Of a DNA stretch of 64,000 bases, positions 1 to 43,745 are shown piece by piece. The notes under the pieces are model-generated. The model was not told the DNA's origin and ran no database searches. It was given only the letters and a program-made list of their open reading frames with translations. How positions within the stretch are numbered: position 1 is the first letter of the stretch; the number at the start of each line of letters is the position of its first letter. Origin of the DNA: Candidatus Saccharimonadota bacterium (GTDB taxonomy: Bacteria; Patescibacteriota; Saccharimonadia; Saccharimonadales; Saccharimonadaceae); assembly GCA_016866755.1 (NCBI GenBank), contig VGLK01000004.1:1-64000 (forward strand). Direction: 5' to 3'. The position numbers were made by a program, and so were the translations under genes.

Positions 1-328
1 GAAGGTCTGCCTGAACAAGGAGACCGGTGAGATCGGAAAGGTTCCCGAGAACGAGGCAGGCAACTACCCCGCCATCGAGGACTGCAAGAAGGAGGAGACT
101 CCCGAAGAGCCCGAGAAGCCCGGCGAGGGCGGACCCGAAGGCCCCAAGCCCGAGGAGCCGCACAAGCCGGAGGAGCCGGAGGTTCCCGAGGAGAAGCTCG
201 TGAAGGTCTGCCTGAACAAGGAGACCGGTGAGATCGGAAAGGTTCCCGAGAACGAGGCAGGCAACTACCCCGCCATCGAGGACTGCAAGAAGGAGGAGAC
301 TCCCGAAGAGCCCGAGAAGCCCGGCGAG
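1..328 (+). repeat. Perfect 127-bp direct repeat, period 201 bp, inside the GC-rich gene
   Basis: Bases 1-127 and 202-328 are identical by eye. The period is 201 bp, or 67 codons, so the reading frame is kept. The array may continue upstream of the window. Perfect identity implies recent duplication or active homogenisation, and copy number could vary between cells. Confidence 0.9.
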
Positions 329-1087
329 CCGACGTGCCCGCCGAACTCCAGCAAGCCGGAGTGCAACCCCAAGGACGGCGACGATGACCGGATCAAGGAC
401 GAGGGTATCAACCCCGCACCTACTCCCGGCACCGATCTCCACCCGGACTACAAGCCGGAGGAGAGCATCGAAGAAATTCCCGTTCTGACCCGTCCGGCCG
501 ACCCGGCCGTCCAGCCCGGCAGCAATGTCGGAGTGGGCGAGACCGAGGCCGACACCGCGATCGGTTCCGACCACGGCGCCAACCCGGCCGACCCTGTCAT
601 GGATGTCGGCAACGGCAACGTGGACACCGACCGTGGCCAGATCGACCGCGACACTCAGGTGAACGACCCCGCGTACGGTGGCAACACCGCCGTGAACGAC
701 GTCGTCGATCCCAACACCGGGGTCGTCATCGTCGAAGCAGGACAGCAGCAGAACGGCAACGTCGAGGCGCCGGCCAACCAGCACATCGCCGACCCCACCG
801 GGTCGCCGAACGACTGGGCCAACCAGCCGATCACCGTGCCGCCGGCCACCACGCAGCCCGTGGAGCCGATTCAGTACGAAGGTCTGCAGCCCGGCGCCGA
901 CAACGGCCTCCCGGTTGCAACCATCGAGGCCCCGGCAGCTCCCGCCGCCGAGGCCATCGTGCCCGTCGCTGCCCCGCAGGCAGAGGCGACTGTTCCGGCC
1001 CCCGAGGCCGAGACCGTTGGCACCACCCCGGTCCCCGTGGCCGAGGATGTCATGCCGACGGCCGACCAGCTGACGCTGGCGGGCTAG
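2..1087 (+). CDS. Repeat-containing surface/secreted protein, 5' end outside window
   Basis: The reading frame is open from base 2, so the start lies upstream. The N-terminal part carries two copies of a roughly 28-residue unit that begins KVCLNKETGEIGKV and ends IEDC, joined by Pro/Glu/Lys-rich linkers. The rest (from about base 330) is low-complexity, rich in Pro, Ala, Asp, Asn and Gly, and ends QLTLAG with no sortase signal or membrane anchor. The next gene carries the same type of Cys-bracketed repeat, so both are probably exported envelope proteins. The DNA is far more GC-rich than the rest of the window, with G or C at almost every third position. No enzymatic domain is recognised. The call as a surface protein is inference from composition and neighbour. 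Confidence 0.7.
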   Translation, partial: KVCLNKETGEIGKVPENEAGNYPAIEDCKKEETPEEPEKPGEGGPEGPKPEEPHKPEEPEVPEEKLVKVCLNKETGEIGKVPENEAGNYPAIEDCKKEETPEEPEKPGEPTCPPNSSKPECNPKDGDDDRIKDEGINPAPTPGTDLHPDYKPEESIEEIPVLTRPADPAVQPGSNVGVGETEADTAIGSDHGANPADPVMDVGNGNVDTDRGQIDRDTQVNDPAYGGNTAVNDVVDPNTGVVIVEAGQQQNGNVEAPANQHIADPTGSPNDWANQPITVPPATTQPVEPIQYEGLQPGADNGLPVATIEAPAAPAAEAIVPVAAPQAEATVPAPEAETVGTTPVPVAEDVMPTADQLTLAG

Positions 1088-12579: not shown

Positions 12580-13602
12580 ATGAATATTCATACCAACATT
12601 GCACTTAAAAGCTTTACGACCATGCGACTCGGCGGCATGGCCGACGTTATGGTAGAACTTAAAAGCCTCGAGGACATTACATCTCTCTACACTCAGGCGG
12701 CGGAACGTCAACTGCCGGTTTATATTTTAGGTAGTGGCAGTAACGTAATTGCGCGTGACGAGGGTTACCGCGGCATTGTAGCACTGAACAGAATTATGGG
12801 ATTTGAAATTGTTCAAGAAGACGAAATGAGCGTTACAATTCGGGTAGGTGCCGGTGAAAACTGGGACGAATTTTGTGCAAAAACAGTTGAAATGGGACTT
12901 TCCGGAATTGCCGCAATGTCGGCTATACCAGGAACTTGCGGCGCATCGCCTGTGCAGAACATTGGCGCGTACGGGCAAGAAGCCGCCGATGTTATTGTTT
13001 CCGTAGAAGCTTACGACACTACCTCTGGTCAATTTGTCGAGCTATCAGCCGAAGACTGTAAATTTTCGTACCGACATAGCATTTTTCGAGGCGAAGCCGC
13101 TGGTAAATATTGTATTACTGCGGTTACATTTCGGCTTTATCGGGGTATGCCGCAGCCGCCATTTTACGATGCCCTACAAAACTACCTAGATAGTCAAAAC
13201 ATCACCCTATATACACCGCAAGTAATTCGCGACGCCGTAACAGCTATTCGTGCCAAAAAACTTCCCGATCCTGCCATTCAACCCAACACTGGTTCGTTTT
13301 TTAAAAATAGTGTTGTTGAGAAATGGCTGTACGACGAAGTCGCCACTAAGTTTCCCGATGTGCCACACTATGACATGCCAGATGGGCAGATTAAAATCCC
13401 GACCGGCTGGCTGATTGAGCAAACTGGTCTTAAAGGCCAGCTACTCCATGGTATGCGTATAAATCCAGCCAATGCGCTAGTATTGATTAACGAATCTGCT
13501 GGCTCTTACAGCGATTTGGCGGCCGCCCGCGAAGAGATTATTACTCAGGTGCGAGATATGTTTAGAATCACCATCGAACAAGAGCCACTCGAACTAGTCT
13601 AG
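12580..13602 (+). CDS. murB: UDP-N-acetylenolpyruvoylglucosamine reductase MurB
   Basis: Catalyses the NADPH-dependent reduction that yields UDP-N-acetylmuramate, the step after MurA in peptidoglycan synthesis. 340 aa, type I (E. coli-like) architecture. The FAD-binding loop GSGSNVIARDEGYRG, the segment GTCGASPVQNIGAYGQE, catalytic SYRHS (Arg165 region) and the proton donor Ser239 in NTGSFFKN are visible. TACGCT lies 7 nt before the ATG, so it is probably leaderless. MurA is encoded 4 kb downstream. Cytosolic. Confidence 0.95.
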   Translation: MNIHTNIALKSFTTMRLGGMADVMVELKSLEDITSLYTQAAERQLPVYILGSGSNVIARDEGYRGIVALNRIMGFEIVQEDEMSVTIRVGAGENWDEFCAKTVEMGLSGIAAMSAIPGTCGASPVQNIGAYGQEAADVIVSVEAYDTTSGQFVELSAEDCKFSYRHSIFRGEAAGKYCITAVTFRLYRGMPQPPFYDALQNYLDSQNITLYTPQVIRDAVTAIRAKKLPDPAIQPNTGSFFKNSVVEKWLYDEVATKFPDVPHYDMPDGQIKIPTGWLIEQTGLKGQLLHGMRINPANALVLINESAGSYSDLAAAREEIITQVRDMFRITIEQEPLELV

Positions 13603-17814: not shown

Positions 17815-17830
17815 AGATCTCCTTTTCTTT

Positions 17831-17870
17831 AGTATACCATTTGTTGACTTTATATCATAGATGATATAAG
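17831..17870. promoter_or_regulatory. Divergent glyA/HTH-murA promoter with 20-bp perfect palindrome
   Basis: TTATATCAT-AG-ATGATATAA at 17850-17869 is a perfect inverted repeat with 9-bp arms. It lies between TTGACT (17844-17849) and TATAAG (17865-17870) of the murA promoter, and next to the glyA -10 (TATACT on the minus strand, 17831-17836). The murA ATG is 8 nt after its -10. The site is ideally placed as an operator, and the adjacent gene product itself starts with an XRE-type HTH. Confidence 0.75.
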
Positions 17871-17878
17871 CTAACGCT

Positions 17879-19402
17879 ATGACTACCGATACGTATGTAC
17901 ACAAAATTGGAAAACTTATTCAAGATACTCGTCAATCTAAAGGCATGACACAAGCCCAGTTGGCCGAAAAACTAAACACCAGCCAAAGCGCCATTAACCG
18001 CATAGAAAACGGCGGCCAAAATCTTAGCCTAGAGATGGTTGCACGCATTAGCGAAGTATTGTCTCAAAACATTGTTACGCTTAATAAAACTGGTAAAATG
18101 AATTTTAAAGTACACGGCGGCAAAGAACTCTACGGTGAAATTGAGGTAAAAACTAGCAAAAATGCCGCAGTAGGACTACTGTGCGCTAGTCTACTTAATA
18201 AGGGCAAAACAACGTTACACCGCGTAGCGCGCATAGAAGAAGTTAACCGTATTATTGAAGTACTTAACAGCATTGGCGTTAAGACCAAATGGCTAGAAAA
18301 TAACGATTTAGAAATCATTCCGCCAAAACGCTTGCAGCTTGAAAACATGGATATTGAAGCCGCTAAACGTACCCGTACGGTAATTATGTTTCTTGGCCCA
18401 CTGCTTCATCAATACAACGACTTTAAACTGCCGTTCGCTGGTGGCTGCAACCTTGGTACGCGCACCGTAGAGCCTCACCTTACAGGTCTCGAACCATTTG
18501 GTATGCGTGTCGAAGCCACAACCGATCACTACCACGCAACTATTGCACCACGTGAAGTCTCGCGCTCTATTTTACTAACTGAACGCGGCGATACCGTAAC
18601 AGAAAACGTTATTATGGCAGCCGCCCGCTACAACGGCACAACGACAATTCGCAATGCCAGTCCTAACTACATGGTGCAAGATGTCTGTTTCTTTCTTGAA
18701 AAACTGGGTGTAAAAATTGAAGGCATTGGCACAACCACCCTTAAAATTACCGGCGTAAAAGAAATCAACAAAACTGTCGACTACTACCCAAGCGAAGACC
18801 CAATTGAAGCTATGAGTTTTATTGCTGCTGGCATCGTAACAGATTCTGAAATTACCGTTAAACGTGTGCCAATCGAGTTTACCGAGATAGAACTGGCAGT
18901 ACTTGAAGGCATGGGACTTGCTTATGAACGAAGCGCCGAATATACCGCCCGCAACGGTCGCACGCGGCTTGTTGATATTTCGTTAAAAAAATCTCAGCTA
19001 CATGCGCCTAAAGATAAGCTTCATAGCATGCCTTTTCCGGGTGTAAACATGGATAACCTACCGTTTCTTGGGCTAATCGCAACGGCCGCACAAGGTCGTA
19101 CGTTGCTTCACGATTGGAGCTACGAAAATCGGGCAATTTACTTTACCGAGCTTTCAAAACTTAACGCCCAAATTGAAATGGTTGATCCGCACCGCGTGTA
19201 TATATCTGGCCCAACCAAATGGAAGCCAGCCGACGTTGTAGCGCCACCGGCACTTCGGCCGTCTGTAGTAATTCTTCTTGCCATGCTTGCCGCCCCCGGT
19301 GAATCAATTCTCCGTGATGTTTATTCTATCAATCGCGGCTACGAAGAATTAGCCCAGCGCCTTAACACCATTGGCGCCGATATCACCACACTGGTAAATT
19401 AA
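17879..19402 (+). CDS. murA: XRE-family HTH fused to UDP-N-acetylglucosamine 1-carboxyvinyltransferase
   Basis: A 507-aa fusion. Residues 6-63 form an XRE/Cro-type helix-turn-helix ([20 protein letters not shown]). From about residue 73 a complete MurA follows, the enzyme transferring enolpyruvate from PEP to UDP-GlcNAc in the first committed peptidoglycan step. The active-site Lys94 (KTSKNAA) and Cys190 (GGCNLGTR, equivalent to E. coli Cys115, fosfomycin target) are kept. The 8-nt distance from the -10 makes the mRNA almost leaderless. A palindrome overlaps its promoter, so autoregulation is plausible but unproven. A terminator follows at 19411. Confidence 0.93.
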
Positions 19403-20956: not shown

Positions 20957-21030
20957 GCCGCTATTATATCAACCCCACAAAGCATATACTAAACATTAAT
21001 TAGCATTCATGATAATTAATAGTGTCCTGA

Positions 21031-21335
21031 CCACCATCAACACCAACGAGCCTGCAGGCGTGGTACTCGAGCGCTCGCGTGGACGCGTACGGCAAGTCGT
21101 GTGCGCAACACGCCGGTGTAGCTTGGGTTGCGTTCAACACCCAAAACGAATCCGGGATCACCACGAACGGGTTGAAAGGCACCCAGGTCGGCAACGAGTT
21201 CTGGACAAGCTGGTCAACGTCCCACAGCTTGGAACGACGCTCCTCATGACCATCAAGTACAACGATGGAGGGTCGTTGGATACCTCTCGGTCCGTCGGCC
21301 GATCCCCAAGCGGCTTCACCAGCAGCATCGGATGA
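21031..21335 (+). pseudogene. GC-rich remnant of an exported-protein gene, frameshifted
   Basis: A GC-rich patch in AT-rich surroundings. One frame (21031-21249) reads as plausible protein (AWYSSARVDAYGKSCAQHAG, then VAWVAFNTQN) and hits TGA at 21247. A second frame, open from 21009, continues to 21335 with MTIKYNDGGSLDTSR. No start with a ribosome-binding site is seen. The best explanation is a degraded 3' part of a transferred gene, followed by its own terminator. Family not recognised. Confidence 0.5.
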
Positions 21336-21370
21336 GTCTAGCCGACTAGGCAGCACACGCAGTAGGGACA

Positions 21371-21404
21371 CCCCGTCATCGCGAAAGCTTTAACGGGGGC
21401 TTTT
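21371..21404 (+). terminator. Terminator after GC-rich remnant
   Basis: CCCCGT at 21371-21376 pairs with ACGGGG at 21393-21398, followed by GCTTTTCC. A small ATTCTAA/TTAGAAT hairpin lies further on, near 21424-21440. Confidence 0.6.
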
Positions 21405-21483
21405 CCTGTTAAGTCACTATCTAATTCTAATTTTTAGAATAAAGAGTTTCCTTTGACAAGAAAGGCGAAAACCAGAACCAGCC

Positions 21484-21702
21484 GTGCAACGAACCGGCAA
21501 CCCGAACGCCCACTTTGTCGATCCGCGCGCCTCGTTCAAAGGCCATGAAATCTGCGGGTCGCTCAAGCCGTGGATCAATGACATTGCCCTCCATGTGAGT
21601 ACGGCAGAGGAGGCTTCTTATGGTTCTTTCCATCCCAACAAGGAAGGACAAGCAGCCTACGCTCGCATTGTTGGGACTAAAGTTAAGGAGGTTGTGAGGT
21701 AG
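21484..21702 (+). pseudogene. C-terminal fragment of an SGNH/GDSL hydrolase
   Basis: The frame from about 21494 encodes the C-terminal third of a secreted SGNH-hydrolase (esterase/lipase type): FKGHEICG, then PWIND, then SFHPNKEGQAAYARIV carrying the catalytic His block. The N-terminal parts with the GDS nucleophile and the GxND block are missing, so it cannot be active. The DNA is GC-rich with actinobacterial-like codon choice. It is followed by a strong terminator at 21729. Likely a remnant of horizontally acquired DNA. Confidence 0.75.
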
Positions 21703-21728
21703 TCACCGGAATTCACTGAAGAACGCTG

Positions 21729-21752
21729 CCCCGGAGGGTTATCTCTCCGGGG
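21729..21752 (+). terminator. Strong GC-rich terminator
   Basis: CCCCGGAG at 21729-21736 pairs with CTCCGGGG at 21745-21752 (8 bp, 8-nt loop). Confidence 0.8.
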
Positions 21753-39960: not shown

Positions 39961-40440
39961 TCAATGATTATTTTTATGTTTTTTCATCAACCTTTGATAC
40001 TCGCTATCGTTTTTCGCGATCGTGTATTTTTCATAAAATATTCGTGCCGATTCTGCTTTTAACGGATCTTCTTTGCTGCGCGGCAGCTCTTGGCGGCCGT
40101 GAGCCCCACTTTGACCTTTTTTATCGTCTGGCACTGGACCGTCGTATTTTTTGCCGCCTTTATGATTAGCGTACCTACGCGAGCGCGTAAAGCCCATTTG
40201 TAAAAATTTGCGCGCCATATCCATACCTACAAAATCGCCCTCATCTCGATACGCGCAAAACATAGCAAATATTTTTTCGGCGGAAACTGCAGCCTTATCG
40301 GGGGTTGCAAACCGCCAATGTGGCAAAATTTCACTTTTATAAGGCTCGGCAAGTAACACCCCTTGTTCGCCGCGCCCTATGTGATATTTCTCTGGATGCT
40401 TTTTAAAATCAATATCACGATACAAATCCGCGTAACTCAT
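39961..40440 (-). CDS. DUF4385 family protein
   Basis: A 159-aa soluble protein. The start at 40440 (MSYADLYRD) is set by TATACT 6 nt upstream. It matches the DUF4385 pattern: HIGRGEQGVLLAEPYKSEIL, PHWRFATP, GDFVGMDMARKFLQMGFTR and RYANHKGGKKYDG. The family's function is unknown. The conserved RYANHKGGKK segment is basic and could bind nucleic acid or phosphate. Stands alone between the exporter and a pilin gene. Confidence 0.85.
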   Translation of the reverse strand: MSYADLYRDIDFKKHPEKYHIGRGEQGVLLAEPYKSEILPHWRFATPDKAAVSAEKIFAMFCAYRDEGDFVGMDMARKFLQMGFTRSRRYANHKGGKKYDGPVPDDKKGQSGAHGRQELPRSKEDPLKAESARIFYEKYTIAKNDSEYQRLMKKHKNNH

Positions 40441-40508
40441 ATTTTTAGTATACCGCACCTATATAGTCAGCGTTGGCAATCATGTAGCCGTAGGTTAAAA
40501 TAAAGCTT

Positions 40509-41081
40509 ATGTTAATTAATGCTCGCCAGCGCGGTTTCACTATCGTAGAATTGCTAATCGTTATTGTAGTAATTGCTATTTTAGCAGCAATTACGATTGT
40601 GGCGTACAACGGAATCCAAGAGCGCGCTAAAAACAGTCAAACAACAAGTGCCCTTACTGCCTGGATGAAAGCGTTAGAGCTTTACAAAATTGATAACGAG
40701 CGCTATCCTGGCGGCTGGGTGTGTCTTGGTGAAGGGTATAAATACTGCGTATCCGGCAACGACACGAGCGGCACCGCACAGTGCCGACAAGACACTGGTA
40801 GCTATACAGTAAACGCCACATTCAATACCCACATGGAGCCCTACATTAAAGGATCGCTTCCTACGCCCGCTTTTGTGACAGCTGTTAATAACACTGGTCA
40901 CTGGCGGCGTGGCCTGATGTATGCGTACGGCGGTGGAGATGGTACGCTTGTGTACATTGACGCCACGTATGCCGGCGCACTCAGTAACTGCCCCGTCGCT
41001 AATGGAACTTCAGCTACGCGCCGTACGGTGTGGGGAGATAATACCTACTGCGGTTACGACATAGGGCGAACAACGCCGTAA
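40509..41081 (+). CDS. Type IV pilin-like protein
   Basis: A 190-aa prepilin: leader MLINARQRG, cleavage before FTIVELLIVIVVIAILAAI (Glu+5), then AYNGIQERAK, the same N-terminal helix as the pilins at 15.5-16.5 kb. The head has about six cysteines (WVCLG, KYCVSG, AQCRQ, SNCPV, TYCGY), more than the usual pair. TAAAAT lies 7 nt before the ATG. Likely a minor or alternative pilin. Confidence 0.87.
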   Translation: MLINARQRGFTIVELLIVIVVIAILAAITIVAYNGIQERAKNSQTTSALTAWMKALELYKIDNERYPGGWVCLGEGYKYCVSGNDTSGTAQCRQDTGSYTVNATFNTHMEPYIKGSLPTPAFVTAVNNTGHWRRGLMYAYGGGDGTLVYIDATYAGALSNCPVANGTSATRRTVWGDNTYCGYDIGRTTP

Positions 41082-41086
41082 ACTTT

Positions 41087-41212
41087 TTACGAAACAAACA
41101 TCAACACAAGATTAATAAGCAAAGTAAGTACTATACTTAATATAATACTTATACCCCACAAAAATTTTATTTTTACTTTTCCCTCAGACGCCATGCGTGT
41201 ACGTGTATTCAT
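41087..41212 (-). CDS. 41-aa single-pass membrane peptide
   Basis: A short frame in the gap after the pilin gene. It encodes MNTRTRMASEGKVKIKF followed by one transmembrane helix (LWGISIILSIVLTLLINL) and ends FVS. TAAACT lies 6 nt before the ATG, the same leaderless pattern as confirmed genes. Basic N-terminus predicts N-in topology. No function assigned; could be a small regulator or chance frame. Confidence 0.45.
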   Translation of the reverse strand: MNTRTRMASEGKVKIKFLWGISIILSIVLTLLINLVLMFVS

Positions 41213-41251
41213 ATAGTTAGTTTACACGATATCTATATATGCAACTAACTA

Positions 41252-41280
41252 TTGATATTTTATGTTTATTGTGTTATAAT
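41252..41280 (+). promoter_or_regulatory. Promoter of the GC-rich cassette gene
   Basis: TTGATA at 41252-41257, 17-nt spacer, TATAAT at 41275-41280: a near-consensus promoter in AT-rich DNA. The roughly 45-nt leader can fold ACTCCT with AGGAGG, which would hide the ribosome-binding site. Confidence 0.8.
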
Positions 41281-41331
41281 AGTAAAATCATTAGGAACAC
41301 TCCTAGTGACTGACTCAGGAGGAGCGGCATC

Positions 41332-41658
41332 ATGCCCACCAACACGCTGAACGACAAGTACCAGCTCGCTACCAAGCAGGCGACGATCGCCGCGCCCAAG
41401 GCGCGAGATGAGATCACCAAGCGACTGTCGCGCGAATCGAGCACCTTCACGCACACCGTCGAGATCGACAACATCAGCCCCAGCCTTCAGGGCACGCGCT
41501 TCGAGAACAGGCTGATGAAGGACCTCGCCGGCAAGCTCTACGGCATGCTCAAGCGCAACAACCGCAGTCGCGTCCACGACGTCAACGTCGGCCAGCTGCG
41601 CTGGTACGAGAACGGCCCCGACCGCGCAATCTTCACCGTGACGGTCCACCTCCACTAG
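41332..41658 (+). CDS. GC-rich small soluble protein, single-gene cassette
   Basis: Unrecognised 108-aa protein. No membrane segment; mixed helix then strand pattern, with LKRNNRSRVHDVNVGQLRW and a His-ending C-terminus (FTVTVHLH). AGGAGG 8 nt before the ATG, a consensus promoter and a 3' hairpin make it a self-contained transcription unit. Codon third positions are almost all G or C, opposite to flanking pilin genes. Likely acquired from a high-GC donor, or under strong codon selection. Confidence 0.7.
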   Translation: MPTNTLNDKYQLATKQATIAAPKARDEITKRLSRESSTFTHTVEIDNISPSLQGTRFENRLMKDLAGKLYGMLKRNNRSRVHDVNVGQLRWYENGPDRAIFTVTVHLH

Positions 41659-41663
41659 TCCAA

Positions 41664-41732
41664 CACCCCGACACCAACCGAAAGGCTGAAGGCGCCCTTG
41701 GCACCCGCATTTCGACCATTTGTGTCGGGGTG
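41664..41732 (+). terminator. Long-loop inverted repeat after the GC-rich cassette
   Basis: CACCCCGACAC at 41664-41674 pairs with GTGTCGGGGTG at 41722-41732 (11 bp). The 47-nt loop contains its own GC-rich sub-hairpin potential. No clear T-run follows, so it may mark a cassette border rather than a terminator. Confidence 0.6.
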
Positions 41733-41785
41733 CCTTCATGTTTGCTTGACGGAGCCAATGCACCTAGTCTACTATTAAAGTACTT

Positions 41786-42319
41786 ATGTTAAACGTTCAT
41801 TCTCCGTCACACCGTGCAGGTTTTACCATCGTTGAGTTACTTGTGGTGATTGTGGTGATTGCAATCTTAGCGTCAATTACCATTGTGGCATATAATGGAA
41901 TTCAAAACCGAGCCAACGATACGGCCGTGCAGTCAGACATTACGAATTTATATAAAAAGATTGAAATCTTTAACACTACCGCTGGCCGCTACCCTAATAC
42001 AACAGAGATTTCAACAATTGGATTTAACGCCTCAACCGGCAGCTACGCCATCAGTCCAACCACTGCACATAATCTTATGTATTGCTTTCAAAGCGGCGGT
42101 AGCAATGCCGACTATGCGGTGGTTGGATTAAGTAAATCGGGTAACGCCTACTATGCCTCAAATAAGTCGGGCGGACTAAAACCTTATACTGCAGGTTGGA
42201 GTACTAACTCAATTACTCCGTGCACTAATATCGATCCGATCCTTACTACTAATTGGCGCGGTTACGTCTCGACCGAAACACCAACTTGGCGCAGCTGGAC
42301 AAGAGGCGGCCAAAGTTAG
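41786..42319 (+). CDS. Type IV pilin-like protein
   Basis: A 177-aa prepilin: leader MLNVHSPSHRAG, cleavage before FTIVELLVVIVVIAILASI (Glu+5), then AYNGIQNRAN. The head has cysteines in MYCFQ and ITPCTN. TACTAT lies 10 nt before the ATG. With the pilin at 40509 it flanks the GC-rich cassette, which therefore appears inserted between two pilin genes. Confidence 0.87.
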   Translation: MLNVHSPSHRAGFTIVELLVVIVVIAILASITIVAYNGIQNRANDTAVQSDITNLYKKIEIFNTTAGRYPNTTEISTIGFNASTGSYAISPTTAHNLMYCFQSGGSNADYAVVGLSKSGNAYYASNKSGGLKPYTAGWSTNSITPCTNIDPILTTNWRGYVSTETPTWRSWTRGGQS

Positions 42320-42368
42320 CACCCTTAGGCTCTATACCCTTTACGCTTAATCTGCTATTATAATCAAC

Positions 42369-43067
42369 ATGAAGTTTACCAGCCTAAATCTATTTGGCTA
42401 TTTCAACGACTGGCAATCACGTCTCCCGCATATTTTAAATTACTTGAGCGAAGAAAAACCGGCGGTAATATTTTTTCAAGAAGTTGTCTATCTTCCCGAC
42501 ACAGCTCCTAGGCCACAAGCATACGATGTTCTTTCAAAATTAGACTACACCTACCAGCAACTGGCCGTAACTCGTCTACAAGGTAGTCCACACCACAGTG
42601 AATATCGCGAAGGATTAGCAGCTGCGAGTCGCTTTCCAATTACTCATGCCGAAACACTTGTGCTTCGCCAACATCCCGATGACCACTTGCAGCGAATTGT
42701 GCAGCTACTTGATATAAATGTAAACGGGCACACTGTAAAATTTGCCAATATACACTTTGCCGAAAAATTTCATCATGCCGAAATTCATTTTCTTGAATTA
42801 CTCGACATTCTTAAATCTCGCGAAGATTACAACCGCATTATTGTAGGTGATTTTAATATGCCCGATTTAGCCACAACCGCCGACCACTGGCAGCAAAATT
42901 ACCGATCCTCAGGTGAACACGCCTACATATCTTACCCGTCAAAAAATTATTGTATAGACTATGCACTTATACCAAAAACCGCTGGTGTTAACATGGCGGT
43001 ATCAACTTCGTCCGACTTACTTTCCGACCATCGCGCCGTTACATTTGCGCTATCCCCAACTGCTTAA
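42369..43067 (+). CDS. Endonuclease/exonuclease/phosphatase (EEP) family hydrolase
   Basis: A 232-aa metal-dependent phosphodiesterase of the EEP superfamily. The catalytic set is visible: SLNLFGYF, FFQEVV (metal Glu), NIHFAEKF, VGDFNMPD (Asp and Asn) and SDHRAV at the C-terminus. No signal peptide. Substrate could be nucleic acid or a phospholipid or sugar phosphate. TATTAT lies about 7 nt before the ATG. Followed by an unknown gene in the same orientation. Confidence 0.85.
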   Translation: MKFTSLNLFGYFNDWQSRLPHILNYLSEEKPAVIFFQEVVYLPDTAPRPQAYDVLSKLDYTYQQLAVTRLQGSPHHSEYREGLAAASRFPITHAETLVLRQHPDDHLQRIVQLLDINVNGHTVKFANIHFAEKFHHAEIHFLELLDILKSREDYNRIIVGDFNMPDLATTADHWQQNYRSSGEHAYISYPSKNYCIDYALIPKTAGVNMAVSTSSDLLSDHRAVTFALSPTA

Positions 43068-43115
43068 CTGTAATCGACACTTGTTTAAAATCAACAATAA
43101 GCCTATAACATAAAT

Positions 43116-43745
43116 ATGCCTCCTCAGCGCTACACACACTCCAAAGAGCTCTCGACCTTACCGCCAGAGGCTATAGCAAGCGCCCACGCAACATGGCACC
43201 ATTTGCTCGATCTATACGTGTACGCACATAAGCAGTTTGAAACAAATAACCGAATGTGTCATTTTGCAAATTACGATCTTCAAACTACTGCACACCAACT
43301 TAGTGCCTCAGTTGTAATTGATTTTGAGCCGGAAGACTCAGGCTATCATACAGCGCGCAGTTTTCTCGACTGGTACAAGCATCATCTTCTTGAACGAGAC
43401 GTAATAAGCGGCACCGCAACAGCCGAAGTGTATTTTCACAAAGTAGAACAACGGATTGCTCAGGTGGCAATTACTGCAACTGACTTTCTTGCTCCCCACA
43501 CACTCCACGACACTACCGCCGACCATACACCATCGAGTATTGCTCGCGCCACTAGAGAATTACTCGAAAAATCCATGTCTGTTCAATTTGAAAGAAACAG
43601 CGAAAACTCTATCTACAACCCATCGAGCGAGGAAGAGTCGGAACTCGCTATGATCGCCGACCCTTTTACTAAAGCAGCCGCCTCGAGTCTATCGTCATTA
43701 CTTCGCCAACTCCGCGCCATTGGGCCAGATCAATATCGTGCGTAA
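43116..43745 (+). CDS. Hypothetical soluble protein
   Basis: Unrecognised 209-aa protein, predicted helical and soluble, with a WHHLLDLYVYAHKQFE helix near residues 27-42 and an acidic C-terminal third (SSEEESELA). Two or three histidines are clustered but not in a known motif. TAACAT lies a few nt before the ATG. Ends 3 bp before the convergent NUDIX stop. No function can be offered. Confidence 0.6.
   Translation: MPPQRYTHSKELSTLPPEAIASAHATWHHLLDLYVYAHKQFETNNRMCHFANYDLQTTAHQLSASVVIDFEPEDSGYHTARSFLDWYKHHLLERDVISGTATAEVYFHKVEQRIAQVAITATDFLAPHTLHDTTADHTPSSIARATRELLEKSMSVQFERNSENSIYNPSSEEESELAMIADPFTKAAASSLSSLLRQLRAIGPDQYRA

Follow-up and report, generated by a model that had tools for sequence, protein, structure and literature searches.

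How did a small gene with almost only G or C in its third codon positions come to stand, with what looks like a promoter and a 3' end of its own, beside pilin genes in a member of the Saccharibacteria, a tiny bacterium of the epibiotic type? The window, by which we mean the whole stretch of 64,000 nucleotides analysed, covers positions 1-64000 of contig C4. The genome comprises 7 contigs with 848,146 bases in all (completeness 99.8%) and is the only one of its genus in the collection used. The original prediction described a self-contained cassette here, and the observation of a promoter, a leader, a GC-rich open reading frame and an inverted repeat at 41252-41732 is confirmed at the level of sequence; the interpretation put on it is partly supported. 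The features are the following.

41213..41252, no strand: perfect inverted repeat of 10 bp, AT-rich, ATAGTTAGTT ... AACTAACTAT, its end touching the -35 box
41252..41280, plus strand: sigma-70-type promoter, TTGATA-N17-TATAAT with TG before the -10 box, 11/12 consensus match
41288..41309, plus strand: predicted 5' leader hairpin, TCATTAGGA-ACAC-TCCTAGTGA, 9 pairs including one G-U
41317..41322, plus strand: Shine-Dalgarno (SD) sequence AGGAGG, 9 nt before the ATG
41332..41658, plus strand: orphan reading frame orf108, 108 codons, ATG at 41332 and TAG at 41656-41658
41664..41732, plus strand: 3' long-arm hairpin with an 11-bp perfect stem and no T-run behind it, from the inverted-repeat test and fold

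The genes flanking the unit encode pilins, an EEP nuclease, RNase Y, a DUF4385 protein and an MFS-like protein, the last so named by inspection. Among the 80 relatives of the RNase Y that were kept, the best is that of TM7 oral taxon 352 (86% identity); most of the 80 lie on contigs labelled Saccharibacteria/TM7, the others on contigs labelled as Patescibacteria or bacterial bins and one labelled Chloroflexi. The DUF4385 protein (39961-40458) also matches phrog_5325 (E 1e-46), and relatives of about 75% are found at two other Saccharibacteria loci.

Is orf108 a gene, and is it as foreign in composition as was claimed? Its GC content is 0.63, that of codon positions 1, 2 and 3 being 0.56, 0.41 and 0.93, as against a GC3 of 0.36-0.50 in the six neighbour genes measured. 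A GC3 of 0.93 together with a GC2 of 0.41 supports real coding, so that the predicted 108-codon gene with almost only G or C third positions stands; the genome holds one copy. Composition, codon scores, promoter and repeat tests likewise support the picture of a self-contained, GC-rich unit of alien codon use behind a native-looking, AT-rich promoter.

The promoter is as good as was claimed, with 11 of 12 sigma-70 positions matched, a 17-bp spacer and TG before the -10 box, and it is the top one of 12 promoter-like sites in 40000-43500 (mean of shuffles, 5.9 sites). The 10-bp palindrome at 41213-41252 was equalled in 2 of 200 first-order shuffles, and each of its arms is present once in the 448,064 bases, about half of the genome, that were read for the class survey described below. 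Judged from sequence, it is possibly an operator, or possibly the end of the pilin1 transcript. The leader had been said to be able to hide the ribosome-binding site. The two elements, ACTCCT and AGGAGG, are present and could pair, but the predicted fold (-17.7 kcal/mol in total; z -2.6 for the whole leader, 5' z -3.0) places ACTCCT in the hairpin at 41288-41309 and not on AGGAGG. Enforced sequestration of the SD sequence gives -13.4 kcal/mol, a penalty of about 4 kcal/mol, so that sequestration is possible but not favoured as the ground state; across the predicted ensemble, part of the pairing of the SD bases is with bases near the start codon.

At the other end of the unit, the long-loop inverted repeat is a perfect 11-bp stem, as claimed, with arms at 41664-41674 and 41722-41732 and 47 nt between them, and a stem of this length was reached in 0 of 500 first-order shuffles of 41656-41785. 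With flanking bases included, each arm grows to 14 nt (93% matched) and the distance between the arms is 41 nt; the z value of the whole 3' fold is -2.2. A search for further copies of the arms found none, CACCCCGACAC occurring a single time in the 448 kb read.

What kind of protein is encoded? No match to orf108 was obtained in Pfam, NCBIfam or PADLOC, and the best E values were 0.31 in PHROGs, 0.8 among PDB sequences, 3 by tblastn of 50,697 phage records and 0.1 by tblastn of 72,556 plasmid records. Pattern scans of GTDB contigs and IMG/VR, which reach close relatives only, gave none. In 394 genomes of the same family and 392 of the same class there was only noise apart from orf108 itself: the best non-self matches (E 0.0065 and 0.0074) contain internal stops, and one at E 0.0077, in a 571-aa frame of a relative, was also judged noise. 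Core homologues with the same codon use, which the original prediction had named as the sign of vertical inheritance, were thus not seen in these genomes; nor was kin closer in a distant lineage than near kin, there being no relatives in any collection searched. AlphaFold, given the single sequence, predicts a compact fold of helix-strand-helix-strand-strand (mean pLDDT 88.7, pTM 0.74). The best Foldseek match in the PDB is weak, to a MUC16-like SEA domain (E 0.024); VIA-align gives a best Z of 6.9; and the best matches in BFVD, also weak (best E 0.0057, TM 0.4-0.5), are uncharacterised phage proteins. DUF7609 and tail-terminator-like folds recur, weakly, in the Foldseek lists. Values at this level may perhaps reflect just a common arrangement. 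The homology and structure searches that had been proposed produced a compact model, and neither a homologue nor a clear fold match.

A further question is whether orf108 stands alone. It had been counted as the third compositionally alien unit in the window, a count that proves too small, since about half of the genome holds 10 GC3-rich reading frames. From the 448 kb read, 373 reading frames were selected and 362 classed, 352 as native and 10 as GC3-rich; GC3 is bimodal, with a native median of 0.40 and maximum of 0.68, and 0.79-0.99 in the GC3-rich class. The class consists of orf108, the patch at 1-1087, L113_160, L120_177, L124_610, L124_291, L115_439, L115_166, L130_144 and, doubtfully, L127_117, which may not be a gene. 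An SD sequence precedes 50% of the class and 10% of native genes, a -10-like box (TANNNT) just upstream of the start is found in 0% versus 47%, and the 3' folding energy is -32 versus -18 kcal/mol. Promoters with 11 of 12 matches serve 4/10 class members and 5/349 native genes (Fisher p 3.6e-5), a count that retains L127_117 as well as the patch at 1-1087 and L115_166, whose promoter scores mean little because the patch begins inside the contig end and L115_166 lies closely behind L115_439.

Two more units checked for kin likewise proved to be orphans. L113_160 has none in 295 family genomes, and the matches of L130_144 there are spurious: an apparent homology in three genomes (E 1e-4 to 1e-3) was to part of a low-GC3 protein, one of 383 aa in two of the three, and was rejected. 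Viral scans with L113_160, L130_144, L041_170 and L164_102, plasmid searches with the VirB2-like 166-aa, ParA-like 439-aa, LGFP 291-aa and L113 160-aa proteins, and a search of phages with the 610-aa protein all gave no match.

Several other GC-rich regions were noted in passing. Window positions 1-1087 and positions 1-1130 of L112 (C1:1-20000) carry the same repetitive surface-type gene, with a motif common to both translations, where contigs C4 and C1 begin, in opposite orientations; its repeats probably broke the assembly at both places. The patch at 21020-21750 is decayed, lies between tRNA genes and has two hairpin ends, and one of its frames resembles, by eye, a GDSL/SGNH-hydrolase tail, with no Pfam match. 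Positions 528-7538 of L115 (G000 C1:60001-80000) hold genes of GC3 0.57-0.86 that include a ParA-like and a small VirB2-like protein; by inspection this region, with L115_439 and L115_166, is probably a cluster for type IV secretion or conjugation, and a GC-rich counterpart of it is present in G017 (L152).

The units also have a common layout. From the end of the -10 box to the start codon there are 51 nt in orf108, 52 in L113_160, 51 in L130_144 and 51 in L112_150, four unrelated units, the last of which has a GC3 of only 0.63. L112_150 is a 150-aa orphan unit (L112 1505-2120) with the promoter TTGACA-17-TACAAT and, immediately ahead of a tRNA-like sequence, a long 3' hairpin that is nearly perfect. 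A mechanical search (promoter of at least 10/12, leader of 38-80 nt, SD sequence, reading frame of at least 70 aa) returned 12 units in this genome, of which 6 exceed the local median GC3 by 0.19 or more. In 1.75 Mb of relatives it returned 33, of which 5 were GC3-rich and 1 of these was judged chance. GC3-rich units have stronger 3' structure than their composition predicts, and stronger than that of the others (mean z -4.7, n=10, versus -1.6, n=34; p 0.0008), and differ weakly from other units with such promoters in 5' hairpin strength (p 0.06), the p values given for the class being descriptive because the thresholds were set while looking; L150_73, which looked like chance, was reassigned manually from the GC3-rich units to the others, and L101, short of 3' sequence, was dropped. 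Similar units occur in the Saccharibacteria relatives L041, L056 and L164. Small GC3-rich orphan frames of similar anatomy lie at 156-464, 17818-18177 and 18315-18809 of L164 (G013) and at 12762-13091 and 20820-21332 of L041, one of the latter with a 12/12 promoter. By its sequence features, then, the orf108 unit is one of a class of autonomous, putatively strongly promoted orphan units in this genome and some relatives.

Where might such codon use have come from? The mean log-likelihood per synonymous codon of orf108 is -1.45 under the native table, -0.74 under that of Rhodobacter, -0.77 under Rhodococcus, -0.81 under Gordonia and -0.84 under Paraburkholderia; Rhodobacter, which is proteobacterial, scores slightly above the actinobacterial tables, so orf108 alone does not single out a donor phylum. 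For nine class members pooled (2,314 codons) the values are Rhodococcus -0.847, Gordonia -0.878, Rhodobacter -0.878, Paraburkholderia -0.957 and native -1.437, and since the reference tables are 50-kb plasmid stretches, the scores suggest a donor phylum at most. Taken together they suggest a high-GC, actinobacterium-like pool as the donor of orf108 and the class. No donor sequence for orf108 was found in the phage and plasmid records, IMG/VR or GTDB contigs searched. As for the predicted insertion between two pilin genes, pilins are indeed among the flanks. Direct repeats do not flank the unit, and the sole hint of insertion itself is that in the relative L073 one pilin is followed by the same EEP gene, with no cassette. 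That arrangement is compatible with insertion but also with other histories.

One might think that orf108 is native, and that its alien look reflects C- and G-ending codons selected by very high expression. A near-consensus promoter, a strong SD sequence and a 3' hairpin would suit such a gene, and EF-Tu too prefers TAC, AAC, GAC and CAC. EF-Tu, a gene expected to be highly expressed, however has a GC3 of 0.43 and prefers ATT over ATC (17 vs 4), GAA over GAG (21 vs 13), CTT and GGT, preferences opposite to those of the class (ATC 0.89, GAG 0.90, CTC+CTG 0.87, GGC 0.59). The class therefore does not follow the native codon optimum, high-expression bias was rejected as the cause of a GC3 of 0.93, and we consider a native, highly expressed gene very unlikely. 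A related idea is that the GC-rich orphan units are a native, lineage-specific class of the Saccharibacteria that share one design for expression and that arose and were maintained by selection, not by import. The leader length common to unrelated units, which would be unexpected under independent random transfers, favours it, as does the presence of units in several genera. A relative of L115_439 (GC3 0.82) in G017, another genus, has a GC3 of 0.87 at 29% identity, which speaks, on sequence grounds, against simple recent import; relatives in two other genomes have 0.65-0.66. Set against a native class are the departure from the native codon optimum and the case of L124_291 (GC3 0.91), which has an LGFP repeat. 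Of 14 control genomes, those of C. glutamicum and M. acetivorans have the LGFP domain, as do 53/295 family genomes, and none of 30 LGFP loci fetched from relatives has a GC3 of at least 0.75, a contrast that fits import of the L124_291 copy. We regard a native class as rather unlikely.

Could the unit instead be a moron or satellite gene left by a phage of Saccharibacteria or of actinobacteria? Its anatomy resembles that of a moron and its gene is an orphan, the best BFVD structures are phage proteins, and the neighbouring DUF4385 protein matches a phage family. Excerpts of PMC10746230 describe phages against which Saccharibacteria and Actinobacteria alike have spacers, a possible route for such genes. 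Yet a family search of seven neighbourhood proteins revealed no structural phage genes, orf108 has no match in the 50,697 phage records or IMG/VR, and the structural matches are weak, so that we hold a phage remnant to be unlikely but still to be reckoned with. One gene with an imperfect inverted repeat behind it also recalls an integron-like cassette, an explanation that was rejected and that we think extremely improbable: the sole tyrosine recombinase of the genome is on another contig, the repeat arm has no second copy in the 448 kb read, the unit has its own promoter, and no second cassette adjoins it.

The explanation that we favour, and find reasonably probable, is that a small orphan protein is expressed here from an autonomous, monocistronic unit, which was acquired from a high-GC pool, most likely that of the actinobacterial hosts or of phages or elements of theirs, and is driven by a near-consensus, AT-rich sigma-70 promoter. 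As that promoter is native-like, the whole unit need not have been carried over. RNA polymerase would begin some 45 nt ahead of the ATG, and the mRNA, of roughly 450 nt, would be bracketed and protected by the 5' hairpin on one side and the long 3' hairpin on the other. The strong SD sequence would drive translation, and the product, of about 12 kDa, would be soluble and of alpha/beta structure. The unit would work like a phage moron, an accessory gene that brings along a promoter and a 3' signal, and our guess is that the protein plays an accessory part in interactions with the host or with phages. A bolder idea, which we consider very improbable, is that Saccharibacteria carry standardised single-gene units, each with a near-consensus promoter, a leader of about 45 nt with 5' hairpin and SD sequence, a GC3-rich orphan frame and a long 3' hairpin, whose codons would be tuned to the actinobacterial cytoplasm because the genes, moved by phages, by conjugative elements or by some other transfer of DNA, would be expressed within host cells as well.

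Little is documented of gene flow between epibiotic Saccharibacteria and the actinobacteria that host them. A part of PMC8406219 reports few originations and notes that evidence of lateral transfer is lacking for the pairs profiled by experiment; many gene clusters confined to a single strain are noted in a part of PMC9040727, and an extract of PMC10633639 indicates that genetics has become possible in the Saccharibacteria lineage. Among open-licence papers we found none that describes this class of units. A class of GC3-rich, autonomously promoted orphans would offer a searchable signature of imported or mobile genes in reduced genomes, and its members are candidate host- or phage-interaction factors.

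How does the unit compare with known systems? Integron gene cassettes consist of one gene plus a 3' inverted repeat with a recombination site. The orf108 unit shares the one gene and the 3' inverted repeat, but differs in having its own promoter, no integrase nearby and no repeated recombination site that we could see. Phage morons are accessory prophage genes with their own promoter and terminator and of deviant composition. Like them, the orf108 unit is a single orphan gene of deviant GC content, with an upstream promoter (11/12, by sequence) and a strong 3' hairpin of its own, though the T-run is absent. It differs in that no prophage context was seen, none of the seven proteins tested being a structural phage protein, and in that the units are scattered among ordinary chromosomal genes. 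With high-GC genes that a lower-GC genome has acquired horizontally, orf108 shares the GC3 and codon use of a high-GC donor, unlike those of its own genome; it differs from them in that its promoter is AT-rich and in that several unrelated units have a common leader length.
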